Shown here in pieces: positions 12,466 to 26,756 of a stretch of 64,000 nucleotides of DNA. Within the stretch, counting starts at the first letter, position 1. Each line of letters begins with the position of its first letter. Below the pieces are notes generated by a model. That model saw only the letters and a list, made by a program, of their open reading frames with translations. It made no database searches and was not told the DNA's origin. Position numbers and translations under genes: made by a program. This DNA is from Veillonella nakazawae. GTDB lineage: Bacteria; Bacillota; Negativicutes; Veillonellales; Veillonellaceae. The stretch spans positions 1,422,001-1,486,000 of the forward strand of contig NZ_AP022321.1 in NCBI RefSeq assembly GCF_013393365.1, given 5' to 3'.

Positions 12466-15400
12466 TTAGAAGCTTCGTGTCCAACGACCACCGATATAAT
12501 TGTTTCCTTGCGATGTGCGCCATGCAGTAAACTTGAGGTTTCGTTTAACAGAATACTCTATACCATATTTTTTTTGCTTGTTATTTATACCTTGAGAATA
12601 GGTCAACATAACTTTCGGTAATACATACTTACCAATTTCAATATTATAGTTACCCGCGGTTTCCTTATTCGTCGGCTCATCAGGATCAATGGAACCTGTA
12701 GTAATATTAATACGATCCAAGCCTAATGTATTTTGCAATGCATCTTGAACATAGCCAAAGGCAAACATTTGTAACCCTGCTGTAGCAACAGCATTTACAT
12801 CATCATTTGTCAATGTACTGCTATTTGAATCTGCCCCACGGCCAAAGGTCAACATAGAAATAATTTGCTTTCTAGATAGACTAGGATTAGACGACAAGGT
12901 TAAATCCATATGGTCTACAGTACCTTTTACACCAAGCATAATATTATAGTTACTTACATTAGTTTCTGCCTCTAATTGTAAGTTTGGCAAATAGGAGCCA
13001 CCCACGAAGTGTGCATTCCCCTTCGTAATATTAAATACATGACTTAAGTATTTAAAGGTACCAGATTTAACATCAAACTGGCCACTAGCTGTTGGATTTT
13101 GTAACGTTCCACCAAAGTGAACATCACCACCAATGAACATATTATACAAAGTACGATCATATAGGCGTACACCCTTGCCAGCATGGACGGTAACGTCTAC
13201 CCCCATATTGGTACTACTTTCACTAGATTGTAAGGAAAGCGGAATCTTGAATTGGATATTTTCCAAGTCCAAATTACCTATCAATGTAGGTAACCCATCA
13301 CGTTCAGCAATATAAAGTTCCCCATTCAATGGGCCCCTAATATATTCACTACGAATATCGAGCCCATCAAGTTGAACAGCAGCCTTATAATTTGTAAGCT
13401 CATGACCAGACCAATTTACTTTAGCAGTTAAACCGGCTGAACCTTTCCCCATATTAATACGGGATTGGAAATCACCTTGCTGTCCTGAGAAGATTAAGTC
13501 TCCATCAATCCCTGTAATTTCACTATCTACATTAGCCAGCTTCATAGTGCCATTACGTACAGAAACCGTACCATATGCTTCTGGTTGATCTATAGTACCA
13601 GTAAGTCTGATTACCCCTTTTAACGGACCGGTTGCATCCTTAACACTAGTAGTAACAAGAGGAATAACAGCCATATCAGCTTCGTTAAAATCGATAGTTA
13701 CGTCCATAGATTTAGCATTACTAGCTTCTATGTAACCAGAGGTATAAAGTGCAGCCAATGGAATCTTGCCATAAATGCTAAGCTTATAGCCCCCTTTTGC
13801 ACCTTGAATACGCTGAATCTGAATAACATGATCTTGCATAGTAGCCAACACAAATCCTTCATCAATGCCAATTCCATTGAAAGAGCCAGATTCTACCGCA
13901 CCAGAGAGTTCAACCTTAGGGTTTTTAGTTTTTCCCGTAACATTCACAACACCAGTTACCCAACCTGTAGCTTGAATATCCTTACCCACAAGTGGTAAGA
14001 ATGGTACTATGTCAACATCTTTTAAAGCGACTTGTAAGTCAGCTTCGCCATCTAGATCCAATGTACCGCCCATGGCAATAAGCCCTTCATCAACAGGTAG
14101 TTTTAAGGTAGTAATTTTAAACTTTCGATTAGCTAAGCTAGCATCAATCGTTGCATCACCAACAACCTTGTCATCAATACTAACTTCATTAATTTTACCG
14201 TCAACAGTAACACTTGGATTATCCTTTGTGCCACCAATTTCAACAGAACCGTTTAATTTACCATCAAGATGCTCATTTTTACGATCTAACAGTGCTAATA
14301 GATTCTTGACACTACCATTAGTAACATCTAAAACACCAAATAGCTGTTTACTATCGTCGAGCTTCATGCCGCCTTTAGCAACATAACGACCACCATTTGA
14401 TTCAGCAAAAGAAAAGTCTTGTACATTTACAACGGATTTATCTGCATAGACATGACCATGTAGATCTGTCAACAATTGGCCATTGATGGATAAAGCATCA
14501 GATAAAACATATCCATTAAACTGAGGATTATCCATAGACCCTGTTATAATACCACGGCCATCTAATAAACCATCTACCTTATAGTCAGTATTGATGAGCA
14601 GTCTGCCCATATCAATTTTTTTACCTTCGAAATCAATATTAATAGCATCTTTTGATACTGTGCCGCCACCAGTAATAGTTGCACCATAACCTTCGATATC
14701 AAAGCGATATAATTCTAATGTTTCATTTTTATAGTTGTATTTGGCAAAAGCATTAGTAATAAGCTTACCATAGGCAGACCCATCCCATAAATGAGCTCGC
14801 CCTTCTACAATTGGACTAGCCGCAGTCCCTGTTATATGGTTGTCAGTTTCAAACCATCCTGTAATAGGAATATCTGTTACAGGGCGAATTAAATTTTCAA
14901 TACGTACAGCACGAGCTTTAGCATTTAAATCTAGCGCATCAGTATTGATATTATACCAACCTGTAATATCATAACCACCACTACCATCACCAATATGACC
15001 ATTGGTAATTGTTAGAACATGATTGTCTAAAGTAATATCGCTATGAATATCATTAAAATGGGCACCCTTATAAAGAACCTCTTGTCCCCATACAGTACCA
15101 GTTACATTAGGGTTATCTAAAGCCCCTTTTACATTAATAGACGTGCTGACTGTGCCAGCTACATCTTCACCTATGATTGGACTAAGTGATGTCAACGGCA
15201 TGGCATTACCAGAAACTGTGGCATCCACTTGACCATTTTGAATAGAACCATATCCACTAAAGGAGCCAGTACCCATCTTACCAACCATAGTTATGTTGGT
15301 AAGATTATCACTATGGGTCAAATCCGCTTTTACAGAATCAATAACTACACCGCGTACACCAATCTGATGACCTTGTACAGCCCCTACAAAATCAGTAACT

Positions 15401-16752
15401 TGATTATTCTTACCCAAAACGTGGATTTCTCCATCAATGGTTCCCGTAATAGGCATAGTCATATCTTGTGTGAAAGTATCCAACGATAAGGCATGAACAT
15501 TAGCAACGGCGTCAAAATCACCTGTATCTACGACGTATTGACCTTTAACTTTAGCATTACCAGCACCAATAGACAATTGGGCATCATCGATACGAACCAA
15601 TCCATTATCGTATACTACATTTCCTTGCACTCGGTCCACATGGTACCCTTTATAAGAAATACCATTACTACCTATTGTCGCATCTACGCGAGGCGCTACA
15701 GTAGTACCACCAATATGTGCACGACCACCAACAATACCAGTAACCCCCAAATCGGTAATGGCTTCAAGATTCACCTTATCCGCTACAACATTAAGATTGA
15801 GATATTCTTCATCCTTCCCTAATGTAATGAGACCATTAAGCTTTGCTGCTTGATCATTAATACGCCAAGAACTATGGCTAATGACAATTTGGTCGTGATT
15901 TAACATAATACGACCTTCCCCATCAGTAATAGTATAGGTCGTATTTCCGCGTTTATAAGTACCGCTTAATCCTTTGAACCCTACATTGCCACTCATAACA
16001 TATTGGCCATCTTCACTTTTAATATTGAGATGTAAATCTTGTAACTTCCCCTCCGATACAACTAAATCCTTACGTAACGGAACAAAGCTCATAATGCCAG
16101 TCGTATCAATTTCATTGGCTTGTACAAACACATCAAAATTAGACACATCATCCATGTCTATATTGCCATTTACAAGAACAGAGGAACCATCTATATCAGC
16201 CGTAAAAGCCCCTTTAGACATACCACTCATATTAAGTGCAACAGTACCATCAAGCTTTTCAACATTTCGTTTTATTCCATCTTTAGTACGTAACGCTACA
16301 TGACCATTATTTATGGTAATATCACCATCAAAACTGCCAGACTTATTTGGATTAGATGGTTTTACCAACTTTTCTACACTCCAAGATCCATCGACCAATT
16401 GCCATATATGGAGATCAGGAGACTCCACGGTAACACTAGATATAGCCGTTGCCCCTGATGTATTACCACCAATTATGCTTGGCAATGCAGATAGTTTAAC
16501 CCCCACTGCTACATCTTGTGCAGTACCTACTAAGTGTCCATCTCGATCTTTAATCACCACATCGGATAGAACTACATCGCCATTCCAATTGATACGAAGA
16601 GAATCATAGTCCACAGATCCGTTTATGGCATTATTTACTTGTTCTTTAACCATAGGAGCCACATAGGTCCGAGCTATAGGATTGATGCTAGCACCAACAC
16701 CACATAATCCTAAAATTGCAGCCCCTATGAGACACCACTTTTTACGGGTCAT
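12466..16752 (-). CDS. tamB: TamB-family inter-membrane lipid transport protein
   Basis: AsmA-like bridge protein that spans the periplasm and moves phospholipid between membranes. It has 1428 residues. One N-terminal transmembrane segment (residues 8-25, WCLIGAAILGLCGVG) is followed by over 1000 residues of beta-rich repeats with recurrent hydrophobic-polar alternation and GT/GN motifs. The C-terminal TamB (DUF490) domain contains SLSRKQIISMLTFGRG and ends WTRSF. TamA is not adjacent; the Omp85 neighbour is BamA. In V. parvula, tamB mutations are known to suppress mla defects, which fits the mla genes just upstream. The ATG has GGGAG at good spacing. Confidence 0.93.
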   Translation of the reverse strand: MTRKKWCLIGAAILGLCGVGASINPIARTYVAPMVKEQVNNAINGSVDYDSLRINWNGDVVLSDVVIKDRDGHLVGTAQDVAVGVKLSALPSIIGGNTSGATAISSVTVESPDLHIWQLVDGSWSVEKLVKPSNPNKSGSFDGDITINNGHVALRTKDGIKRNVEKLDGTVALNMSGMSKGAFTADIDGSSVLVNGNIDMDDVSNFDVFVQANEIDTTGIMSFVPLRKDLVVSEGKLQDLHLNIKSEDGQYVMSGNVGFKGLSGTYKRGNTTYTITDGEGRIMLNHDQIVISHSSWRINDQAAKLNGLITLGKDEEYLNLNVVADKVNLEAITDLGVTGIVGGRAHIGGTTVAPRVDATIGSNGISYKGYHVDRVQGNVVYDNGLVRIDDAQLSIGAGNAKVKGQYVVDTGDFDAVANVHALSLDTFTQDMTMPITGTIDGEIHVLGKNNQVTDFVGAVQGHQIGVRGVVIDSVKADLTHSDNLTNITMVGKMGTGSFSGYGSIQNGQVDATVSGNAMPLTSLSPIIGEDVAGTVSTSINVKGALDNPNVTGTVWGQEVLYKGAHFNDIHSDITLDNHVLTITNGHIGDGSGGYDITGWYNINTDALDLNAKARAVRIENLIRPVTDIPITGWFETDNHITGTAASPIVEGRAHLWDGSAYGKLITNAFAKYNYKNETLELYRFDIEGYGATITGGGTVSKDAINIDFEGKKIDMGRLLINTDYKVDGLLDGRGIITGSMDNPQFNGYVLSDALSINGQLLTDLHGHVYADKSVVNVQDFSFAESNGGRYVAKGGMKLDDSKQLFGVLDVTNGSVKNLLALLDRKNEHLDGKLNGSVEIGGTKDNPSVTVDGKINEVSIDDKVVGDATIDASLANRKFKITTLKLPVDEGLIAMGGTLDLDGEADLQVALKDVDIVPFLPLVGKDIQATGWVTGVVNVTGKTKNPKVELSGAVESGSFNGIGIDEGFVLATMQDHVIQIQRIQGAKGGYKLSIYGKIPLAALYTSGYIEASNAKSMDVTIDFNEADMAVIPLVTTSVKDATGPLKGVIRLTGTIDQPEAYGTVSVRNGTMKLANVDSEITGIDGDLIFSGQQGDFQSRINMGKGSAGLTAKVNWSGHELTNYKAAVQLDGLDIRSEYIRGPLNGELYIAERDGLPTLIGNLDLENIQFKIPLSLQSSESSTNMGVDVTVHAGKGVRLYDRTLYNMFIGGDVHFGGTLQNPTASGQFDVKSGTFKYLSHVFNITKGNAHFVGGSYLPNLQLEAETNVSNYNIMLGVKGTVDHMDLTLSSNPSLSRKQIISMLTFGRGADSNSSTLTNDDVNAVATAGLQMFAFGYVQDALQNTLGLDRINITTGSIDPDEPTNKETAGNYNIEIGKYVLPKVMLTYSQGINNKQKKYGIEYSVKRNLKFTAWRTSQGNNYIGGRWTRSF

Positions 16753-17041: not shown

Positions 17042-17067
17042 AAAAAGACGACCGAAGTCGTCTTTTT
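17042..17067 (-). terminator. Rho-independent terminator of the mla-tolC operon
   Basis: An 11-bp perfect stem (AAAAAGACGAC with GTCGTCTTTTT) around a CGAA tetraloop, 15 bases after the tolC stop, giving a U-tract on the minus strand. Confidence 0.92.
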
Positions 17068-17082
17068 AGGTTACATATTATA

Positions 17083-18561
17083 TTATTGATTGCTACCAAG
17101 TTTAGCTAACTGTTCAGCTGCACCACTGTTTGCAATAATTTCTGCACCTTGTCCAACTGGAGTATTCAAAGGAACACCTGTCAATTGTTCAAGAGCAGCA
17201 ATACTAATATTGTAATTATAAAGTGCTTGTACATAATTATTACGAGCATCTGTTAATTTAGTTTCAGCATCCAGTACATCAAGGTTTGTACCAACACCTG
17301 CACGATAACGAAGTGTAGCAATGCGGAAGCTTTCTTGACCTTGAGCGACTGCAGTTTGAGTGCTTTGGATTGTTTGCTCTGCAGAACGCAAGTTCAAGTA
17401 TGCTTTTTGTACTGCTAGCAACACATTATCTACAGCGGCTAAGTTGGCTTCTTTAGCTTTTTCTAAAGTATCAGTAGCCACTTTTACTTTATTTTGTGTT
17501 GTACCGCCATCCCATAGACTCCAAGAAGCCTTTGCTCCAATATGCCAAGATTTGTTATTTGTACCAAAGTAACCATCTGGATCAGCATAACCACGACCGG
17601 CTTCTACACCAACTGTAGGTAAGTAGCCAGACTTAGCCTTTTTCAAAGTCTCTTCAGCCTCTTTTACGGCCATAGCAGATTTTACAAGCGCTGAGCGATG
17701 AAGCAATGCATATACTTTAGCTTGTTCTAATGTAACATTGTAAGGTTTATATTGTAAGTCATGTTCTGCCGTATTAATAGCTGTTTGTGCAGGATATGCA
17801 ATGACTTGATTTAAACTTGCTTCTGCTAAATTTGCAGCGTTTTGTGCTTTTACAAGATTCGTTTCAGAGTCTGCGAGATTTGTTTTAGCAGCCAATACAT
17901 CAGAACTAGCGACCAAGCCAACATTATATTGAGCTTGCACATTTGTTACATGACCTTGGTAATCTTTCACAGATTGCTGAGCCACATCAACAAGATTACG
18001 GTTCATAATTAACGTATAGTAGCCACTGATAGCATCGTATTTAGCTTGTTGCAATGATTCTTCATAACTTGCACCAGCCCCTTCTCGTGCATAACGAGAT
18101 ACATCAATAGACGCATCTAATTCAGGACTAAATACAGGTGCGCTAATCGTAAAACTATGACTACCAGTCTTGCTTGTTACGTTTCGTCCAGTCATAGCGC
18201 TCACACCATTACTTCTGGCCCCTTGCCACGAATAAGAAATACTAGGATTTTTACCAGCTGCGGTAGCACTTACAGTATCTTTTGCAGCTTGATAGTCCCA
18301 TTTAGTTTGTTTTGCAGTACGGTTATTGGCCAATGCCAAATCTATAGTACGAGACTCATCGAGGTCCAATTTGTTCTCATATGTTTTGCTATCTTGAACA
18401 GATTTTTCAGCTAATTGCTTTTGTGTTAATTGAATAGCTTCTTTTTGATATTTGCTTAATTGGTCTCCATTATTAACGGAAGTTGTAACTACATCAGCAG
18501 CCATTGCACCTGTAGTAACCAAGGAGAGCATTACACCCAAGGATAAAACCTTTTTATTCAT
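17083..18561 (-). CDS. tolC: TolC-family outer-membrane channel
   Basis: Outer-membrane efflux channel of the OEP family. The protein has about 492 residues from the chosen start. The signal peptide ends near GAMAADV. Two OEP repeats are visible, each with long helical hairpins (repeat 1 about residues 70-270, repeat 2 about 290-470), including RYRAGVGTNLDVLDAETKL. The frame is open to 18582, but GGAGG lies eight bases before the ATG at 18561, which begins a proper signal peptide. No inner-membrane pump or adaptor is adjacent. The gene is the last of the mla unit, 20 bases or so from mlaD. Confidence 0.92.
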   Translation of the reverse strand: MNKKVLSLGVMLSLVTTGAMAADVVTTSVNNGDQLSKYQKEAIQLTQKQLAEKSVQDSKTYENKLDLDESRTIDLALANNRTAKQTKWDYQAAKDTVSATAAGKNPSISYSWQGARSNGVSAMTGRNVTSKTGSHSFTISAPVFSPELDASIDVSRYAREGAGASYEESLQQAKYDAISGYYTLIMNRNLVDVAQQSVKDYQGHVTNVQAQYNVGLVASSDVLAAKTNLADSETNLVKAQNAANLAEASLNQVIAYPAQTAINTAEHDLQYKPYNVTLEQAKVYALLHRSALVKSAMAVKEAEETLKKAKSGYLPTVGVEAGRGYADPDGYFGTNNKSWHIGAKASWSLWDGGTTQNKVKVATDTLEKAKEANLAAVDNVLLAVQKAYLNLRSAEQTIQSTQTAVAQGQESFRIATLRYRAGVGTNLDVLDAETKLTDARNNYVQALYNYNISIAALEQLTGVPLNTPVGQGAEIIANSGAAEQLAKLGSNQ

Positions 18562-18603
18562 AACATGTACCTCCATACTCACCTAAAGTGAATGTATTAG
18601 TCT

Positions 18604-19863
18604 TTAAAATACTTGTTTGATACCAAAGTAGGTACCGCCATTCGTGGAACCGAACGGTCTGGTCATTTGAATAACCCCATAAGTATCTTTATGTAAACGT
18701 ATATCACTACGAATACGATATTTACGATGATTAAGATCATACATAGCAGCAGACAAGGATACAGGACCACGTAAATTATAATCTACGCCCACGCCCAATT
18801 CACTTTCAAAAATACCACCACGTACTAACCATTTCGGACTAACAAATTTTCCTGCATTTAAATCGAATTTTGTATCATCCCCAATATTGGATAGGCCAAT
18901 TTCTGCCATACCTTTATCGTTAAATGCACGAAGTCGACCATTGATGCGGAATTCATTATCTGTTGTGTTATACAACAGATCTACAGCTGGTTCAACCTTA
19001 GGGGAAGACTTTTTTTCAGTTGTGCCAACCTCTACAATATTTCCATTTGTATCAGTTTGATACGCCTTACCACCCATCAATTTATTGATACGAGCAGAAA
19101 TTTGTGCCGTATTATGTAATGTTTCCTTAATATTTTCTTGTGCTTTAGGATCTGTTACCGTAGACTCCATGGAACGAGCCATATTATCTACACGATCCGT
19201 AGTTTGTTTTAAGTTAGTCAAAATCGCACGCATATCATTACCTGCATTACCATCTGCATTAAATTGCTGTGCCGCTTGATTTAGCTGTGCAGTTACATCA
19301 GCCATATTTTGTGTAATCGCTACTGCATTATCAGCCATTGTCGCTGTAGATTGCAAGGAATGCTTAAGTGCATTTTGCGTTGCAGGATCACCAATAATAT
19401 TATTGATAGACTGCAACATTTTTTCGGTGCCATCCATTAATTTCTGAGCGCTTTGCATAGCTTTTTCCATAGCATCTGCACCTTCGCCCTTAACGGAATC
19501 ACCATCTTGTAAATATACTGTAGAATGACCAGGTGAAATTTGGATAAATTTATCGCCTAAGAAACCATCTGACCCTAAAGTAAATATAGAATCACTTGGG
19601 ATTTGTGTTTTTTCATCAACCTTCATTTTTACTACCACACCATGCGGTGTAATCTCAATATCAGAGACATTACCGATAGCTACACCAGAGTATTTAACTT
19701 GATTGCCATTTTTTAGACCATTAACTTGAGCAAAATCACCAGTAATTGTCATTTGCGGCTTAGCCCATATATCAATGCGGCCTACAAACAGTATGCCCGC
19801 AATAAATAATGCTATGCCTATTATCGTGAAAGCCCCTACCTTGGCCTCCGTCGTCCACTTCAT
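18604..19863 (-). CDS. mlaD: Elongated MlaD with MCE domain and C-terminal beta-barrel-like domain
   Basis: Substrate-binding part of the Mla phospholipid transporter. Its 419 residues exceed E. coli MlaD (183). A transmembrane helix (residues 10-29) is followed by an MCE domain (about 37-112) with GDFAQVNGLKNGNQVKYSGV. Then comes a long helical region (125-275) and a C-terminal domain (285-419) of alternating beta strands ending in Phe (YFGIKQVF), as outer-membrane barrels do. This matches the transenvelope MlaD described for V. parvula, which replaces MlaA and MlaC. The ATG overlaps the mlaF stop (TAATG). Confidence 0.95.
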   Translation of the reverse strand: MKWTTEAKVGAFTIIGIALFIAGILFVGRIDIWAKPQMTITGDFAQVNGLKNGNQVKYSGVAIGNVSDIEITPHGVVVKMKVDEKTQIPSDSIFTLGSDGFLGDKFIQISPGHSTVYLQDGDSVKGEGADAMEKAMQSAQKLMDGTEKMLQSINNIIGDPATQNALKHSLQSTATMADNAVAITQNMADVTAQLNQAAQQFNADGNAGNDMRAILTNLKQTTDRVDNMARSMESTVTDPKAQENIKETLHNTAQISARINKLMGGKAYQTDTNGNIVEVGTTEKKSSPKVEPAVDLLYNTTDNEFRINGRLRAFNDKGMAEIGLSNIGDDTKFDLNAGKFVSPKWLVRGGIFESELGVGVDYNLRGPVSLSAAMYDLNHRKYRIRSDIRLHKDTYGVIQMTRPFGSTNGGTYFGIKQVF

Positions 19864-20621
19864 TATACCTCTCCCATCACAGATACGTTAATTGGTTCTG
19901 CTTCACCATGAATAAACTGTTGTACCTTTTTATTTGTAGAATTCTTAAAGTCTATTGTATCAGAAATTTCCACAAATTTCCCCTTATCAAGTAAAGCTAT
20001 GCGGTCTGCTACATAAAATGCAGATTGCATATCATGCGTTACAACGATAGAAGTACAACCGAGCCGTTGCTGCATTCCCTTAATCAACATACTAATCGTA
20101 CCTGATGTAATAGGATCTAACCCGGATGAAGGTTCATCATAGAGAATTAAACTCGGATCTAACGCTATGGCACGAGCTAAGCTAACACGCTTCTTCATGC
20201 CTCCAGATAATTCGTTAGGCATATAGGATTCATACCCTTTTAAACCGACCCAATCGAGACGTTCTGCTACAATGCGTTTTATTTCATCATCTCCTAAGTC
20301 CGTATGCTGACGTAAGCCAAAGGCTACATTTTCACCTACCGACATAGAGTCAAATAATGCAGAGTATTGGAATACCATCCCCATTTTTCTTCGTACTGTA
20401 TTAAATTCATCTTCAGATAATGTTGTAATATCTGTGCCATCTACTATAATCTGTCCCGATGTAGGACGCTGCAAGCCAATCAATAAGCGAAGTAGTGTAC
20501 TTTTACCACTACCACTACCACCTAATATGACTAACGTCTCCCCATCATCGATGGTGAGATTAATAGAGTCTAAAATCACACGCGACTCATAGGCAACTAC
20601 AACATTGCGTAGTTCTATCAT
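19863..20621 (-). CDS. mlaF: Mla ABC transporter ATP-binding protein
   Basis: ATPase that powers the MlaEFD lipid transporter on the cytoplasmic side. The 252 residues contain Walker A (GGSGSGKST), the signature LSGGMKKR, Walker B with DEPSSGLDP, and the switch His in VVTHDM. The order mlaE-mlaF-mlaD with a one-base mlaF/mlaD overlap supports complex formation. No STAS-domain MlaB gene is adjacent. Confidence 0.95.
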   Translation of the reverse strand: MIELRNVVVAYESRVILDSINLTIDDGETLVILGGSGSGKSTLLRLLIGLQRPTSGQIIVDGTDITTLSEDEFNTVRRKMGMVFQYSALFDSMSVGENVAFGLRQHTDLGDDEIKRIVAERLDWVGLKGYESYMPNELSGGMKKRVSLARAIALDPSLILYDEPSSGLDPITSGTISMLIKGMQQRLGCTSIVVTHDMQSAFYVADRIALLDKGKFVEISDTIDFKNSTNKKVQQFIHGEAEPINVSVMGEV

Positions 20622-20641
20622 AAATCCCTCTAATGCATCTA

Positions 20642-21403
20642 CTAATATAACAAGGTAGATAAAATGTAATTTAATACAAATACTAAAATGATACTAGTTA
20701 CTACAGAACTAGTTGTGGAGAATCCAACCGCTTCAGCGCCCATTTTAGTTTCCATCCCCTTGTAAGCACCTACCAATGCAATGACAGCACCAAATACGCT
20801 AGATTTCAAAAGACCTAGCGTAAAGTCTGAAATGGTAGAAAACATTTGAATAGAATCTAAATAAGTACTTGGCGCCAGACCTTTGATAGCAGTAGCTACA
20901 AAGTAACCACCTGCAATACCAATGACTACACCATAAAATGCCAAAATAGGCACCATAATCATACATGCTACTACACGAGGTACCACGAGATAACCAACAG
21001 GATCGACAGCCATAACACGTAACGCATCAATTTGTTCAGTTACCTTCATTGTACCAATTTCAGCCGTGATAGCGGCGCCAACACGGCCGGCCAGTACAAC
21101 CCCTACTAAAATAGGCCCTAACTCACGACCCATAGCAACAGCCATAAGACCACCTACAGTGCTTTGAGCTCCATATGTAATCAATACATCTGTAATCTGT
21201 AAGGTCATAACCGCCCCTGCAAATAGTAGCGTTAAGCTAATAATCGGCAATGAATCTACACCTAGGTGAGCCATCTGCTGGAATACATGCCACAGATTAA
21301 TCATTTTCAGTTGTTTTATTGTTTGCCACACTAATAATGTAGCACTACCCATCTGTGATAGGCCGTGTATTACAACACGACCTATCGATTCAAGCCAATT
21401 CAA
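20642..21403 (-). CDS. mlaE: Mla ABC transporter permease
   Basis: Inner-membrane permease of the MlaE family, 253 residues, five or six hydrophobic segments. Family motifs include the glycine-rich VLAGRVGAAITAEIGTMKVT and EQIDALRVMAVDP. The start is TTG at 21403, with AAAGGG eight bases upstream. It lies 20 bases before mlaF and just after the S55 peptidase gene. Confidence 0.95.
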   Translation of the reverse strand: MNWLESIGRVVIHGLSQMGSATLLVWQTIKQLKMINLWHVFQQMAHLGVDSLPIISLTLLFAGAVMTLQITDVLITYGAQSTVGGLMAVAMGRELGPILVGVVLAGRVGAAITAEIGTMKVTEQIDALRVMAVDPVGYLVVPRVVACMIMVPILAFYGVVIGIAGGYFVATAIKGLAPSTYLDSIQMFSTISDFTLGLLKSSVFGAVIALVGAYKGMETKMGAEAVGFSTTSSVVTSIILVFVLNYILSTLLY

Positions 21404-21434
21404 CAGTCTAGCCCTTTCCCCTTACATTTTCAGC

Positions 21435-23417
21435 TTATTCAGCTGCATTAGTATCATTTACTTTGGATTCATCCTTTTTATCAGGTGTTTTTTTGTCTTG
21501 TTTATCAGACTTTTTCACATCTTTTTTACTGGATTTATCCTTTTTTGATTGGTCTTCCAACTCTAATTTATGTTCCATCTTGATTTGATTTTTAACTTCT
21601 TTTACGCGTTTAGCTAGTGCTTTATCACGATCAGCTGGCTTCATAACATGAATTGTAAATTGACCATCACCTTGAACGATGTACTCTGTATCAATAGCAG
21701 TCTTTTCGATTTGATTGTCATCATCCTTATTGGAACCCAAATCTTCTTGGCCAATTTTTTTCTTTACATCCCCTGGCATAGGTTTTGATTCCACATCTTT
21801 AAGTTTCGCTTTTTTAACAGATTTGGAACCATCTTCATCAACAAGGCTAATGCCATCTTCTAAAAACTCTACAACGATTTGATTATTCGTATCAGTCTTT
21901 TGAATTTCATCATAAAGCTCATCAAAATCTTTATGAACTTTTAATCGACGTAAGATTTCATCAGTTAAATTGTATTTTTGTTTTTCTAATACATAAGGCA
22001 ATGGGATTTCACCGCCCCCACGTACCTCTAAGGTATACTGACCAACAGCTTGATCTTCAGGAACTTTAAAGAAGATTTGTTTAACAACCTTCTCCCCGCG
22101 GAATGGCTCCAATGTTACATCTACAACGATTGTATCCCCAGGAGAAACAATGGTAGAAGATGCAGACGCATCAATAAGCTTTGCAGTTTTCTTATCTTGT
22201 GTTACTTCAGTTTCTACAGAGATATCAGAGATTTCATAATTAATGAATCGGTTATTCATAAGAACATCGATAACATTGTAGAACTCATCAACAGCCTTCT
22301 CTGAAATAGAGTCAGAACTATAGAACATATTAGTTCGTGTCAACGGTTTATGTTCTTTACCTCTTGGAGTAATAGTATAAGAAATTGTAGCTGTACCAGC
22401 GCCACTACGATCTAATGTTTTATTCAACATATTATATAGAGATGTAGCCGCTAAGGTCGGTGTCATTTCACTATCTTCAATGACCTTAACAGAGCTAGTT
22501 TTATCACGTCCCATATCAAGGTCTTTTAAATGGAAGCGCATAGGAATACCTGGAGAGATCACTCCAGATACGCCAGCAATACCAGCACCTCTATCTTCAG
22601 TTACTGAGCCTACTTCCTTGCCCATAGAGCCTAATTTGAAAGCAGCATCATAACTTTTAACTACCGTAAAGATACTTGCATTGTGCATAAAGTAGTTTGA
22701 AGAGCCATGTTTCAAGAATGGATGACCAAAGGCAACAATCTTTTCACCATCTACATAGGTAACAGTACCAATAGCACCAAGTTTTAAGTCACCATCAACT
22801 AATAATGCGGCTACAGAGCCACCAGCCTCCAAAGGCTTTGCAGTTTCATCCCCACTAGCACTAGCTGTATCATATGTTTCATATTTATATTGTGGCAGCT
22901 TGGATTTAAAGTAATCCATGGACGCTGCATCAAAGCCATATGCCATAAGTGGTGTGCCAAGAGGAATCAATTGTTTATCATCCCATGGTCTAGATAGGTT
23001 CTTCTCATATGGAATATTCCATAATTTCACCATATCTTCAATAGGGGTAATCATCCCGATCGTACCGTCTGCAAACCCCCAACCATAGGCAACAGCACCA
23101 ACGAGCTTGCCATTTATATATACAGGACTACCACTCATGCCATGAGCAATGCCTCCAGTTTTTTCCATAACAGGACCAGAGAACTTTGCCAAAATAAGAT
23201 GACCAGATGGCCCCTTATCCTTCATGACACCCAGTACCTTTACATCAAAGGTTGAAATGGTATCTCCTACAATTACAGTTTTTGCAATACCTTCCATACC
23301 TGTATTTACATCATTGACAGGCATGAAATCAACAGCCTGTGCAGCTGTAAGTGAAGTACAGAAGAAAAGCGCCAGTATCGCTTTTCTATACCGACGCCAA
23401 GAATGAGAAAACTTCAT
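21435..23417 (-). CDS. Exported S55 (SpoIVB-type) serine peptidase domain protein
   Basis: Predicted periplasmic protein of 660 residues. The signal peptide runs to about 28 (LFFCTSLTAAQAVD). An S55 domain covers roughly residues 35-330, with the nucleophile motif HGMSGSP (Ser 95 or 97) and IVAFGHPFL. A beta-rich middle region (380-480) and a Lys/Asp-rich disordered tail (590-660) follow. SpoIVB is a sporulation-signalling protease in Bacillus, but no other sporulation gene is seen here, so an envelope role is likely. It sits between a small exported barrel protein and mlaE in the same unit. Its substrate is unknown, and whether it cleaves other proteins is not shown. Confidence 0.8.
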   Translation of the reverse strand: MKFSHSWRRYRKAILALFFCTSLTAAQAVDFMPVNDVNTGMEGIAKTVIVGDTISTFDVKVLGVMKDKGPSGHLILAKFSGPVMEKTGGIAHGMSGSPVYINGKLVGAVAYGWGFADGTIGMITPIEDMVKLWNIPYEKNLSRPWDDKQLIPLGTPLMAYGFDAASMDYFKSKLPQYKYETYDTASASGDETAKPLEAGGSVAALLVDGDLKLGAIGTVTYVDGEKIVAFGHPFLKHGSSNYFMHNASIFTVVKSYDAAFKLGSMGKEVGSVTEDRGAGIAGVSGVISPGIPMRFHLKDLDMGRDKTSSVKVIEDSEMTPTLAATSLYNMLNKTLDRSGAGTATISYTITPRGKEHKPLTRTNMFYSSDSISEKAVDEFYNVIDVLMNNRFINYEISDISVETEVTQDKKTAKLIDASASSTIVSPGDTIVVDVTLEPFRGEKVVKQIFFKVPEDQAVGQYTLEVRGGGEIPLPYVLEKQKYNLTDEILRRLKVHKDFDELYDEIQKTDTNNQIVVEFLEDGISLVDEDGSKSVKKAKLKDVESKPMPGDVKKKIGQEDLGSNKDDDNQIEKTAIDTEYIVQGDGQFTIHVMKPADRDKALAKRVKEVKNQIKMEHKLELEDQSKKDKSSKKDVKKSDKQDKKTPDKKDESKVNDTNAAE

Positions 23418-23429
23418 TCCTTCTCTCCT

Positions 23430-23714
23430 TTATTTACTTTCTACTGTGACAACGATTTGATCACGAGAAACGTCTGAACCCACTGTAACATTAACCGCCG
23501 TTACAGTACCAGTTACAGTAGATTTAGCAGCAGCCATAGGGCCAGCCAATGTCTCTACAGTTACCAATGTTTGACCTTCTGTTACAGCAGAGCCAACAGA
23601 AACTGTAGAAGCAACTTTACCTGTTAATACACTTTGGTATGATACAGGGGCCGCCATTACAGAGTTAACACTTAAAATGCCTAAAGCAGCTAAGGCCAAC
23701 ACTACTCTTTTCAT
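23430..23714 (-). CDS. Small exported biotinyl/lipoyl-like (barrel-sandwich) protein
   Basis: The protein has 94 residues: a signal peptide (residues 1-22, ending SVMAAP) followed by a single barrel-sandwich hybrid. Two half-motifs are visible, GKVASTVSVGSAVTEGQTLV and GTVTAVNVTVGSDVSRDQIV, which are the two halves of the lipoyl/biotinyl fold. The position that carries the modified Lys in carrier proteins reads TLAGPMAAAKS, with no EAMKM motif. It is therefore unlikely to be a biotin carrier, and resembles the lipoyl domain of membrane-fusion adaptors. Its function is unknown. A strong GGAGG precedes the ATG. Confidence 0.7.
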   Translation of the reverse strand: MKRVVLALAALGILSVNSVMAAPVSYQSVLTGKVASTVSVGSAVTEGQTLVTVETLAGPMAAAKSTVTGTVTAVNVTVGSDVSRDQIVVTVESK

Positions 23715-23802
23715 AACGATCCCTCCTTTTACAAAATTAGTTATGTATTTATAGTATACTAAATTATTACTAATATTTCAAACAAAATTGTATGCAACGA
23801 AT

Positions 23803-25146
23803 TCATTTTATAATTACAATATCCTCATAGGTCGTAGGATTTGGAGTAGCTTTATGTACATACGTATCATTAACCACTAAATCAACACTACCTTGATTTG
23901 ATAATTCAGCACCATCTACGACGCCTAGCTTAGATAACAGTTTGGCCCCTTCTTGTTGTGTGACCCCTACGGATTGAAGGCCTGCTTTATCAACAGTAAG
24001 GACCACTAAATTATGATCTTTTGTGGTTCCTATGAAACTACGAGCTTTATTATGGGTCCCATCAGCACCTACATAGTTACCATTCTTCAACACCATAGTA
24101 CCCGCTTGTAGCGCTGCACCACCAGTAGTGCTAACTTGTGCTAACTCCGGTCTATTTTGAATCGTAATCGGTGTGCCCACTTTTAATTTACGCAGTGCAT
24201 CTCTTGATTCTCCATGCCCAGATAATACATATTGGTTTTCTCCAATTTTAGAATTTCCTTTTTGACCACTAACGACCTTACCATTGGCTACAGTCACTTC
24301 ATAGCCGAAGTCATTAGTTTTTGTAGAAGGCCCATAAGCTGATGTATATAGGGTCAAGGCATTTTCTTTACGTCCTGTATTAACAGATGTAATTAGGAAG
24401 GTATCTTTTTGTGTTTTAGCTTGTAATAAGGGTCTCTTTTCCTCAATAAAATATCCCCGATTTGGTGTATATCGCAAGGTGCCACGATTAGAAATACGCT
24501 CTAAATCAATCGTTCCATCACTAGCTACTGAATAAGGACGATCAAAACTTCCACCCTTTACCTTTGCTCCAATGATGGCAGTATGAGATTGAATCACAGA
24601 TGATAAGGTTTTTCCTTCTGAAACATGGGCTACTACCATAGGTGAATCATTATCAACGGATAACGCAAAGGCTTGAATCTTACCTTCTGCTACAGTGTTA
24701 TTAATCTTGCTATACGTAACGGATTTATTTACATCTTTTGTTGTTTGTTGAGCATAGCTAGAAAATAAATCCACTACAATACGCGATGGTTTTTCCAATG
24801 TAAACTCATGGTGTTGTACATCCTTATTAGCTGTCAATGTTACTTGTAAAGCACCATTAACAGGTTGCAAGCCAATACCTTTTAAAACACCTGTTTTCGT
24901 GTTATTTTGAGCTACAGGTCCAGTCAATCCATTTATCGTACCACCTAGGTTAAGGGTAAGAGCATGTGTAGACTCATTATAAGATTTAGTCCAAGATACA
25001 GGCATTTCAGACACATCTAATACGATTCGACTTGTACCTTCGTGATTAGATACACGTACGCCGGTTAAATTTCCAGCTTCAGCATAAGGTATTGTACTGC
25101 CTAGAAAGCCTAACACAGCAAAAGTCATATATAAATATCGTTTCAT
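23803..25146 (-). CDS. Secreted AMIN-domain protein with phosphodiester-glycosidase-like domain
   Basis: The protein has 447 residues with a signal peptide to about 25 (IPYAEAG). Residues 26-125 resemble an AMIN domain (GVRVSNHEGTSRIVLDVS), which binds cell wall or targets periplasmic proteins. Residues about 190-435 follow the NAGPA phosphodiester glycosidase pattern: AKVKGGSFDRPYS, a middle VLSGHGESRDALRKLKVG, and RSFIGTTKDHNLVVLTVD. The usual final LDGGGS motif is replaced by ELSNQGS, so glycosidase activity is doubtful. It is the first gene of the unit that continues to mla and tolC. Confidence 0.75.
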   Translation of the reverse strand: MKRYLYMTFAVLGFLGSTIPYAEAGNLTGVRVSNHEGTSRIVLDVSEMPVSWTKSYNESTHALTLNLGGTINGLTGPVAQNNTKTGVLKGIGLQPVNGALQVTLTANKDVQHHEFTLEKPSRIVVDLFSSYAQQTTKDVNKSVTYSKINNTVAEGKIQAFALSVDNDSPMVVAHVSEGKTLSSVIQSHTAIIGAKVKGGSFDRPYSVASDGTIDLERISNRGTLRYTPNRGYFIEEKRPLLQAKTQKDTFLITSVNTGRKENALTLYTSAYGPSTKTNDFGYEVTVANGKVVSGQKGNSKIGENQYVLSGHGESRDALRKLKVGTPITIQNRPELAQVSTTGGAALQAGTMVLKNGNYVGADGTHNKARSFIGTTKDHNLVVLTVDKAGLQSVGVTQQEGAKLLSKLGVVDGAELSNQGSVDLVVNDTYVHKATPNPTTYEDIVIIK

Positions 25147-25225: not shown

Positions 25226-25254
25226 AGTATACATCATAAAGATGAAAATTACAA
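25226..25254 (-). promoter_or_regulatory. Predicted promoter of the AMIN-S55-mla-tolC operon
   Basis: On the minus strand, TTGTAA (25249-25254) and TATACT (25226-25231) are 17 bases apart, between the mreB terminator and the first gene of the unit. It leaves a leader of about 75 bases. Confidence 0.6.
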
Positions 25255-25361: not shown

Positions 25362-26756
25362 TTATTGTAATTCATCCAATGTATCGCGCAATTGTGACAT
25401 TTCATCAAGAGCTTTTGCAACCCCTTTGATAACAGCATATCGTGGAGACTCAACTAAATAAGATGCAATACCAACAGAACGTGTAATAACACGATCTAAA
25501 CCATCGATGAGAGCACCGCCACCTGTCAGAATGATACCATGATCATTAATGGCTGCTACAAGTTCTGGAGGTGTTTTTTCTAAAATCGATTTAATGCCTT
25601 CTAGAATATTCATCACTTGCGCCTCTAAAGCACGTTGAATTTCTAAGGAATTAACAGCGACCATCTTAGGTAGTCCAGAGCTAGCATCACGCCCTCTAAC
25701 CTCTATAGTTCGTTCTTTAGCACGTCGATCTACGGTACCAACAGAAATCTTTATCTTTTCTGCTGTTAAAGGTCCAATAACAAGTCGCTTCTTACGACGT
25801 ATATAGCGAATAATAGATTCATTGAAGGAATCTCCCCCAATGCGAAGGGATTCACTCACAACAACGCCAGTATCACAAAGAACGGCAATATCAGTAGTAC
25901 CGCCACCTACATCGACAACCATAGCTCCAACTTGGTCAGCATCATTGAGACCTGTACCCATAGCTGCTGCTAATGGTTCCTCTATAAGAACAGTCTTTTT
26001 AGCGCCCGTTCTAAGTAAAGCCTCTAAAATAGCACGTTTTTCAACAGGCGTAATTCCAGATGGCACACATACGATAATACGCGTTTTCATCAATCTAGAA
26101 GCAGGCACAACGGAACGAATAAAGTATTTTAACATAAATTCGGTCATATCGTAATCTGCGATAACGCCCGCTTGAACAGGACGAATAACAGATATGCCTT
26201 TAGGTGTACGCCCAACCATAGAACGTGCAGCTTCACCTAACGCGAGAATATCTCCGGTTTTATCATCACGCGCAATATAGGCAGGCTCATCTAAGACTAG
26301 CCCTTTCCCTTTAGCAAAGATAAGAATATTGGCAGTTCCCAAATCTATACCTAAGTCAAAATTCAATGAACGATTCAATCGTCCCATTAAATCGCCTACT
26401 TGTTCAGGACGAACTAAACGCTTTAATGTCATAGCAGGTGTAGTTTTCGCTATGGCAACAGTTTCACGATTACGACGCTCAACACGACGCATTTTGGTGA
26501 CTTTAACCATTGCTTCGCGCATATTGGAAGCCAAATGGCTAGCTTGCTTAGCTACGCCCTCTGAAAGCTTCGTAGACTTGCGTTTCGTCCTTCGTAATGG
26601 TTTACGATTAGAACTAGTTTTAGCATTTTCAACCTTTGCAGCACCTAAGTTTTGTTGCTCGTTGTATAAAGCCGGCCCTTTTGAGCGCCGGCTTCGTTTC
26701 TTTTTATTCTGTTTTGGCTCTGTACTTTTATTCGTCAACCCGAACAATATCAGCAC
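25362..26756 (-). CDS. mreB: MreB/Mbl-family actin-like protein with long basic N-terminal extension
   Basis: Bacterial actin that organises cell-wall synthesis. The canonical domain starts near residue 136 ([20 protein letters not shown]) and carries the phosphate-2 motif [13 protein letters not shown] and the C-terminal [14 protein letters not shown]. Upstream is an open frame of about 130 residues, Lys/Arg-rich and probably disordered. If it is translated from GTG 26756 or TTG 26747, the gene overlaps murA by about 20-30 bases. AGGTG lies six bases before the TTG. A start at ATG 26387 with a weak site would give the usual 340 residues. murA adjacency resembles the Bacillus mbl locus without spoIID and spoIIID. 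Confidence 0.88.

Follow-up and report, generated by a model that had tools for sequence, protein, structure and literature searches.

The stretch of Veillonella nakazawae DNA analysed here (the window, 64,000 nucleotides long) has a G+C content of 39% and reads as Veillonella-like. Its minus strand carries, in the order of reading, mreB, a gene for an AMIN/NAGPA protein, a gene for a small barrel-sandwich protein that we call LIP, a gene for an S55 (SpoIVB-type) serine protease, mlaE, mlaF, mlaD, tolC, a terminator, tamB and bamA. The seven genes from AMIN/NAGPA to tolC (17083..25146) had been listed in a preliminary description of the sequence, and our open reading frame (ORF) calls and Pfam matches agree with both the list and the span. 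We focus on the S55 protein (21435..23417; 660 residues, 98% identical to its V. infantium counterpart), for which Pfam, alignments and profile comparison point to a circular permutation, and which follows the outer membrane in its distribution. Upstream of its gene are those for the AMIN/NAGPA protein (23803..25146; 447 residues) and LIP (23430..23714; 94 residues), and the N-termini of all three proteins, judged by eye, support the earlier proposal that they are exported. Downstream lie mlaE (20642..21403, TTG start), mlaF (19863..20621) and mlaD (18604..19863), three adjoining ORFs with Pfam and NCBIfam matches to the permease, the ABC ATPase and the MCE-domain protein of a minimal MlaEFD system, the last being an elongated MlaD of 419 residues, the published length of the V. 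parvula protein. They are followed by a gene for an outer membrane protein of the OEP/TolC family (17083..18582), which more likely starts at ATG 18561, behind GGAGG, than at GTG 18582. As described previously the gaps between genes are small (-1 to 88 nucleotides), namely 88, 12, 31, 20 and -1 nucleotides from the AMIN/NAGPA gene to mlaD, and then 21 (GTG 18582) or 42 (ATG 18561) before tolC.

The Pfam profile Peptidase_S55 matches the S55 protein with 44.3 bits (cut-off 25), covering only positions 109-209 of its 210. The match begins at residue 28, right after the signal sequence, and no PDZ domain was detected at E 0.1 in the Pfam scan. Residues 28-136 (23010..23336) are the serine-bearing beta-barrel; they contain the GxSGSP motif expected of S55/SpoIVB proteins, as GMSGSP (Ser95 codon 23133-23135), and their counterpart in SpoIVB is the C-terminal half of its S55 domain. 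The N-terminal half of that domain, with its GxGTxx...GH motif, was found by profile match C-terminal to the serine half, at residues ~200-300 (22518..22820), where FGHP contains His232 (codon 22722-22724) and Asp275 follows (codon 22593-22595). The linear order of histidine half then serine half, as found in 30 SpoIVB proteins, is accordingly reversed in the window protein and its relatives. When the order of the two motifs was scored by regular expression in 120 proteins, it was permuted in 99, the opposite in 2 and assigned to neither class in 19. Three Synergistota rows, including Acetomicrobium (one of those 2), have AFAHP at the histidine column and so lie outside the reach of the expression; the other misses were not viewed singly, and the histidine column itself is His in 128 of 129 rows.

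Four segments of the S55 protein (28-150, 150-320, 190-320 and 320-480) were compared with SpoIVB by hhalign. The serine half of SpoIVB matched residues 28-150 in each of three alignments (P 9e-27, 5e-28 and 2e-27), and the histidine half matched residues 190-320 with P 2.5e-6 and a score of 37.6 using 129 rows, or P 4.6e-5 using 118 rows. For the 129-row alignment the best of 100 column shuffles scored 21.9 and reversed columns scored 13.9, and for the 118-row alignment nine unrelated families scored no more than 21.4 and 40 shuffles no more than 19.0. These sequence comparisons suggest that the S55 protein is a circular permutation of a SpoIVB-type domain, with the serine half placed after the signal peptide and the histidine half second. 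In a complete PA fold the histidine half would then be the first barrel, as judged from profile comparison rather than from structure.

The putative catalytic residues are strongly conserved. Ser95, Ser97, His232 and Asp275 are invariant in 118/118 rows of an alignment that includes the window protein, and in a second set of 129 rows (the window, eight loci and 120 proteins retrieved by means of a remote relative) Ser95 and His232 are each present in 128 rows and Asp275 in all 129. The source labels of this second set include Halanaerobiales, Armatimonadota, Acetomicrobium, Synergistes, Pyrinomonadaceae, Holophagaceae, WOR-3 and Polyangiales. In a separate alignment no histidine apart from His232 was invariant. 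The conserved Ser, His and Asp are those expected of a PA-clan serine protease, with Asp275 as a candidate third catalytic residue. In the structure of SpoIVB published in 2025 (PDB 9lnf) Asp363 lies ~24 Å from His236, and Thr393 was proposed as the third residue (PMC12502668). Neither position is kept in the 118-row S55 set, where the equivalent of Asp363 is Gly in every row (it is Asp in 26/129 rows of the wider set) and that of Thr393 is Ala, Ser or Gly. The loss of Thr393 would fit a non-catalytic relic or scaffold descended from the sporulation protein, as would the fact that V. parvula is non-sporulating (PMC5491611). However, Ser95, His232 and Asp275 are conserved, and some genomes of the same phylum, such as G188 and G189, have a separate SpoIVB-type match alongside the S55 protein; we regard a relic as highly improbable.

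The genome sets used below were drawn from the class and the phylum of the nearest genome (G001), taken as Negativicutes and Firmicutes/Bacillota. A long S55 protein of the permuted type (best E below 1e-50, the other S55 matches being short and SpoIVB-type) was found in 76 of 299 genomes of the phylum. Omp85 was likewise found in 76 genomes, in 73/76 of those with the S55 protein as against 3/223 of those without it, and 58 of the 60 genomes with TamB were among the 76 with S55, counts that take no account of relatedness. The exceptions are three genomes with Omp85 and no S55, and three with a shorter S55 match and no Omp85. The S55 proteins of the latter three (G250, G284 and G337; open frames of 366-443 residues) may be variants lacking the C-terminal part in apparently monoderm hosts. 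MlaE was matched in only 19 genomes, every one of them within the S55 group, leaving 57 of the 76 S55 genomes without an MlaE match.

We also inspected 40 S55 loci taken from the 66 S55 genomes outside Negativicutes, two of them with less than 5 kb of downstream sequence. It can be seen that tamB is directly downstream of S55 in 30/40 of these loci and anywhere downstream in 34/40, and that Omp85 is encoded within 12 kb in 37/40 and on another contig in the other 3. TolC was near S55 in 1/40, and MlaE, MlaD and LIP in 0/40. The S55 protein tracks the outer membrane and not Mla, and the most economical interpretation would be that, in Negativicutes, mlaEFD-tolC has come to separate S55 from tamB. 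One of the loci (L184, 440-17810) has sporulation-type and outer membrane genes side by side, in the order murA, spoIID, an M23 peptidase gene, flagellar rod genes, flgA, flgH (L-ring), flgI, an flgJ-like gene, S55, tamB, bamA and ompH, so that S55 lies between the flagellar L-/P-ring genes and tamB-bamA-ompH. The flagellar ring genes of this locus, together with the mreB and murA genes that the cluster also holds, are what would be expected if independent envelope genes had been gathered into an outer membrane super-cluster for co-expression without sharing a pathway. We think this unlikely, as S55 stays on the tamB side in distant lineages and in the 299 genomes occurs almost only with Omp85; an outer membrane function, at least, therefore seems indicated.

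Within Negativicutes the S55 protein was matched in 148/150 genomes, at E 3e-51 or better except for two weak matches (G139, 9e-16; G144, 1e-9). For the gene neighbourhood we took about one genome per genus plus extras (75 loci), together with the window, L032 and L045, giving 78 loci, of which 70 were kept and eight dropped for short flanks. The genes found beside S55 were those for NAGPA (60 loci), LIP (57), MlaE (58), MlaF (58), MlaD (58), TolC (56) and TamB (54), and all six of NAGPA, LIP, MlaE, MlaF, MlaD and TolC occurred together in 48/70. The neighbourhood is conserved, as the preliminary description had proposed should be checked, although mlaE is not beside S55 in 12/70 loci. In the family f12 (L052, L080, L085, L114; L062, L091, L102) a MurA-type gene follows S55 on the same strand and mlaE does not adjoin it; a genome-wide search of two members, G012 and G030, placed mlaE, tamB and Omp85 on another contig than S55. 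At a further locus, L106, LIP and S55 are retained with no mla genes downstream.

These distributions bear on the idea, put forward in the preliminary description, that the Mla system has the three exported proteins as accessories, all being made from one operon. On such a view LIP could, for example, form a ring between MlaD and TolC, or the S55 protease could mature MlaD or TolC. The gene order conserved in 48/70 Negativicutes loci and the presence of S55 in all 19 MlaE genomes fit this idea, and so does the finding of LIP beside S55 in 53/58 loci with an adjacent mlaE as compared with 4/12 loci without (kinship not being accounted for in either count). However, it does not explain the 57/76 S55 genomes that lack MlaE, the lack of MlaE and MlaD near S55 in the 40 loci outside Negativicutes, the retention of LIP and S55 at L106 or the separate contigs of mlaE and S55 in G030 and G012, and the promoter-like element described below lies inside the proposed operon. 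Because of the S55 genomes without MlaE and the mla-free outside loci, we no longer treat the three genes as encoding Mla-specific subunits, and we consider this proposal improbable.

The Mla core itself is ordinary and published. In V. parvula mlaEFD is followed by tolC and tamB, without MlaA and MlaC, and the 419-residue MlaD has a predicted outer membrane barrel; the MlaEFD-TolC-TamB locus is conserved in all Negativicutes, and MlaEFD is described as a minimal transenvelope retrograde phospholipid transporter, the mla mutants showing sensitivity to SDS/EDTA (sodium dodecyl sulphate/ethylenediaminetetraacetic acid) and hypervesiculation that are partly suppressed by loss of tamB (PMC10665443). 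The locus described here has the same gene order, length of MlaD and lack of MlaA and MlaC. The latter two proteins were found in 0/6 Negativicutes genomes (four of the window's genus) in a search with a positive Escherichia coli control, which upholds for them the earlier statement that the classical partners are missing; MlaB was not searched for. In the main text of PMC10665443 the words SpoIVB and peptidase occur zero times, and the S55 gene is to that extent not discussed there. It is the permuted, outer membrane-following protease that is the under-described neighbour.

The seven genes had been proposed to form a single unit running from a promoter at 25226-25254 to a terminator at 17042-17067. 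The terminator part of this proposal holds, since the hairpin after tolC (~17042..17067, AAAAAGACGACttcgGTCGTCTTTTTT) has a folding z of -4.1; it is absent from the list given by the consensus scan. The start promoter fares less well. The promoter-like element 5' of the AMIN/NAGPA gene (TTGTAA-17-TATACT, 25226..25254) scores 9/12 and is one among 50 promoter-like sites, against 47.2 expected by chance, and its -10 hexamer is retained in 8 of 10 aligned Veillonella rows. A second element, TTGAAA-17-TATACT (23753..23781), lies 5' of LIP within the 88-nucleotide gap and scores 10/12. In an alignment of the window with nine out of 18 related loci, both of its hexamers persist in all 10 rows (with TTGAGA in one and TATAAT in four) although the spacer varies, and the motif CAATTTTGTTTGA upstream of it is retained likewise. 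Among the other nine loci, L039, L040, L041, L044 and L048 have a TATAAT or TATACT at a like distance 5' of LIP, but their first hexamer differs or is weaker, and nothing convincing was seen at the position of the element in L045; at L042, L043 and L047 the start of LIP was not located by our script. Because the hexamers in this gap are kept while the spacer diverges, a separate promoter probably serves genes 2-7 in most Veillonella, whether or not there is read-through, and because a conserved promoter-like element falls between genes 1 and 2, a single transcript over all seven genes is doubtful. Taken together, the conserved neighbourhood and the export of the three proteins are supported, and their co-transcription as one unit and a function specific to Mla are not.

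LIP has a lone lipoyl/biotinyl-like domain (Pfam Biotin_lipoyl, 28 bits, cut-off 22.1), the barrel-sandwich fold that is shared by lipoyl/biotinyl carriers and HlyD-type adaptors. Unlike these it is exported and lacks the attachment lysine, the helical hairpin and the other adaptor domains. The lysine of 1gjx aligns with Ala57 of LIP, the column being Thr or Ala in 12 rows, and we rejected a biotin or lipoyl carrier on this ground; a complete adaptor was rejected on the ground that the 94 residues make up a single domain with no hairpin. LIP was matched in 116/150 Negativicutes genomes at E 2.6e-16 or better (a tally of 148/150 at E 0.001 includes biotin carboxylase-type matches in long frames). 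Among 40 further genomes with S55 the best match was 4e-10, and 21 had none at E 0.001. Strong matches were found only in Negativicutes among the genomes searched. The AMIN/NAGPA protein has an AMIN and an AMIN-like region and a C-terminal NAGPA (phosphodiester glycosidase) domain (Pfam, 48.2 bits, cut-off 25), which we take to be the domain formerly named DUF2233. It is probably a wall-binding protein and glycosidase, and its gene is beside S55 in 10/40 loci outside Negativicutes. As side observations at the edges of the cluster, no membrane-fusion adaptor or resistance-nodulation-division (RND) pump gene adjoins the tolC gene (17083-18582) in a Pfam scan of its neighbours, LIP being the sole barrel-sandwich protein there. 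The tamB gene (12466..16752, Pfam) lies downstream of the terminator, and in the MreB/Mbl ORF (25362-26756) about 130 residues precede the MreB domain, either through a start called too early or as a real N-terminal extension.

Some of these genes have been met before in V. parvula, where Vpar_0519 (DUF2233) and Vpar_0521 are in a table of outer membrane proteins with a plus in all three extract columns, and where TolC is Vpar_0525, a number that fits the gene order here (PMC5491611). From domains and numbering we infer that Vpar_0519 to Vpar_0525 are the seven genes of this locus. The AMIN/NAGPA gene is probably Vpar_0519, by its domain and place in the order, and the S55 gene is probably Vpar_0521. 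The latter was described as SpoIVB plus DUF1090 and called an important target, conserved in diderm Firmicutes and related to the outer membrane (PMC5491611). Three poorly annotated genes, one of them COG750, were reported from an outer membrane cluster of Negativicutes and Halanaerobiales and are absent from monoderm Firmicutes (PMC5007114); our guess is that the COG750 gene is S55. Compared with what the available text of these two papers says of Vpar_0521, the permutation, the adjacency to TamB outside Negativicutes, the spread over several phyla and the co-occurrence with Omp85 are additions made here. No report of a permuted S55 protease was found in titles and abstracts of the open literature, a search that had preprints and most subscription papers outside its range; one paper that has both 'circular permutation' and 'SpoIVB', PMC1949818, concerns, in its accessible text, the beta-grasp fold.

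The S55 protein shares the serine barrel and the GMSGSP and ALGH/AFGHP motifs with SpoIVB, and differs from it in the reversed halves, the lack of a PDZ match, the C-terminal extension and the invariant Asp275. The permuted halves and lack of a PDZ match also set it apart from HtrA/DegP, genes of HtrA type being present separately. SpoIVB activates the processing of pro-sigmaK (PMC12502668), and the S55 protease might by analogy act in envelope-stress signalling, sensing trouble at the outer membrane and cleaving a partner in the inner membrane so as to set off regulated intramembrane proteolysis, as SpoIVB does in the forespore space or as DegS does. Its secretion and its conserved catalytic residues would suit this role. 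However, the Pfam scan found no sensor (PDZ) domain, and there is no anti-sigma or site-2 gene among the seven genes (a genome-wide search was not made), so that a signalling role has, in our judgement, rather little chance of being the right one.

We think it probable, with some reserve, that the S55 protein is a permuted, secreted periplasmic serine protease of general outer membrane biogenesis and not a dedicated Mla subunit, and that AMIN/NAGPA and LIP are accessory envelope proteins, found with it for the most part in Negativicutes loci. The stretch would be part of the large outer membrane gene cluster of diderm Firmicutes. In the layout envisaged, the Ser95 barrel comes first and the half with His232 and Asp275 second, with a C-terminal part after it and, last, a charged tail, so that a PA-type fold would be permuted with respect to SpoIVB. 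The protease would most likely trim or degrade a periplasmic or outer membrane-assembly client on the TamB/BamA side of outer membrane biogenesis. Several observations weigh against this interpretation, among them the exceptions to the genome counts given above and the neglect of relatedness in those counts. The match of the histidine half is modest (P 0.009 in a 78-row alignment, with hhalign probabilities of 4%, 69% and 89% for 78, 118 and 129 rows), a tandem-duplicated SpoIVB profile gave no single alignment bridging both halves, and Asp275 pairs with an Asn of SpoIVB in one alignment and not in another. No structure was found with both halves aligned, the aligners being sequential, and rows of HtrA, SpoIVB and viral 3C-type proteases were tied. 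The block 231-240, which contains His232, has a pLDDT (predicted local distance difference test score) of 68 in the full model, and residues 150-316 modelled alone did not fold (pLDDT 36), so that we make no claim for the fold of the second half from structure. In the predicted structure it is the serine barrel alone that is matched, residues 28-134 superposing on SpoIVB 311-416 with an identity of 29-32% over ~105 residues in the structure search. Foldseek with the full model gave no match at E 0.001, an unrelated adhesin coming top (E 3.8e-3, probability 0.11) and SpoIVB second (E 8e-3, probability 1.00). Lastly, HtrA-type (Trypsin_2) proteases are present in 10/10 genomes and therefore a role of S55 in quality control would not be unique; on the same matches we rejected the S55 protein as a substitute for a missing HtrA.

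Databases label the protein 'SpoIVB peptidase S55' although no more than half of the S55 profile aligns with it, and the half-swap would explain this. Its recognition would supply catalytic residues that can be tested and a widespread, uncharacterised protease that follows the outer membrane, and tamB and bamA, and not mla only, become the first genetic partners of S55 to consider. More tentatively, and as a possibility we would not yet lean on, bacteria that have an outer membrane, Negativicutes included, may possess an ancient family of circularly permuted serine proteases that serves TamB/BamA-dependent outer membrane biogenesis, with SpoIVB, which signals across the forespore's double membrane, as its unpermuted sister. 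The sporulation protease and the outer membrane protease would therefore share one origin, which would bear on the question of a common history of the Firmicutes outer membrane and the sporulation machinery.

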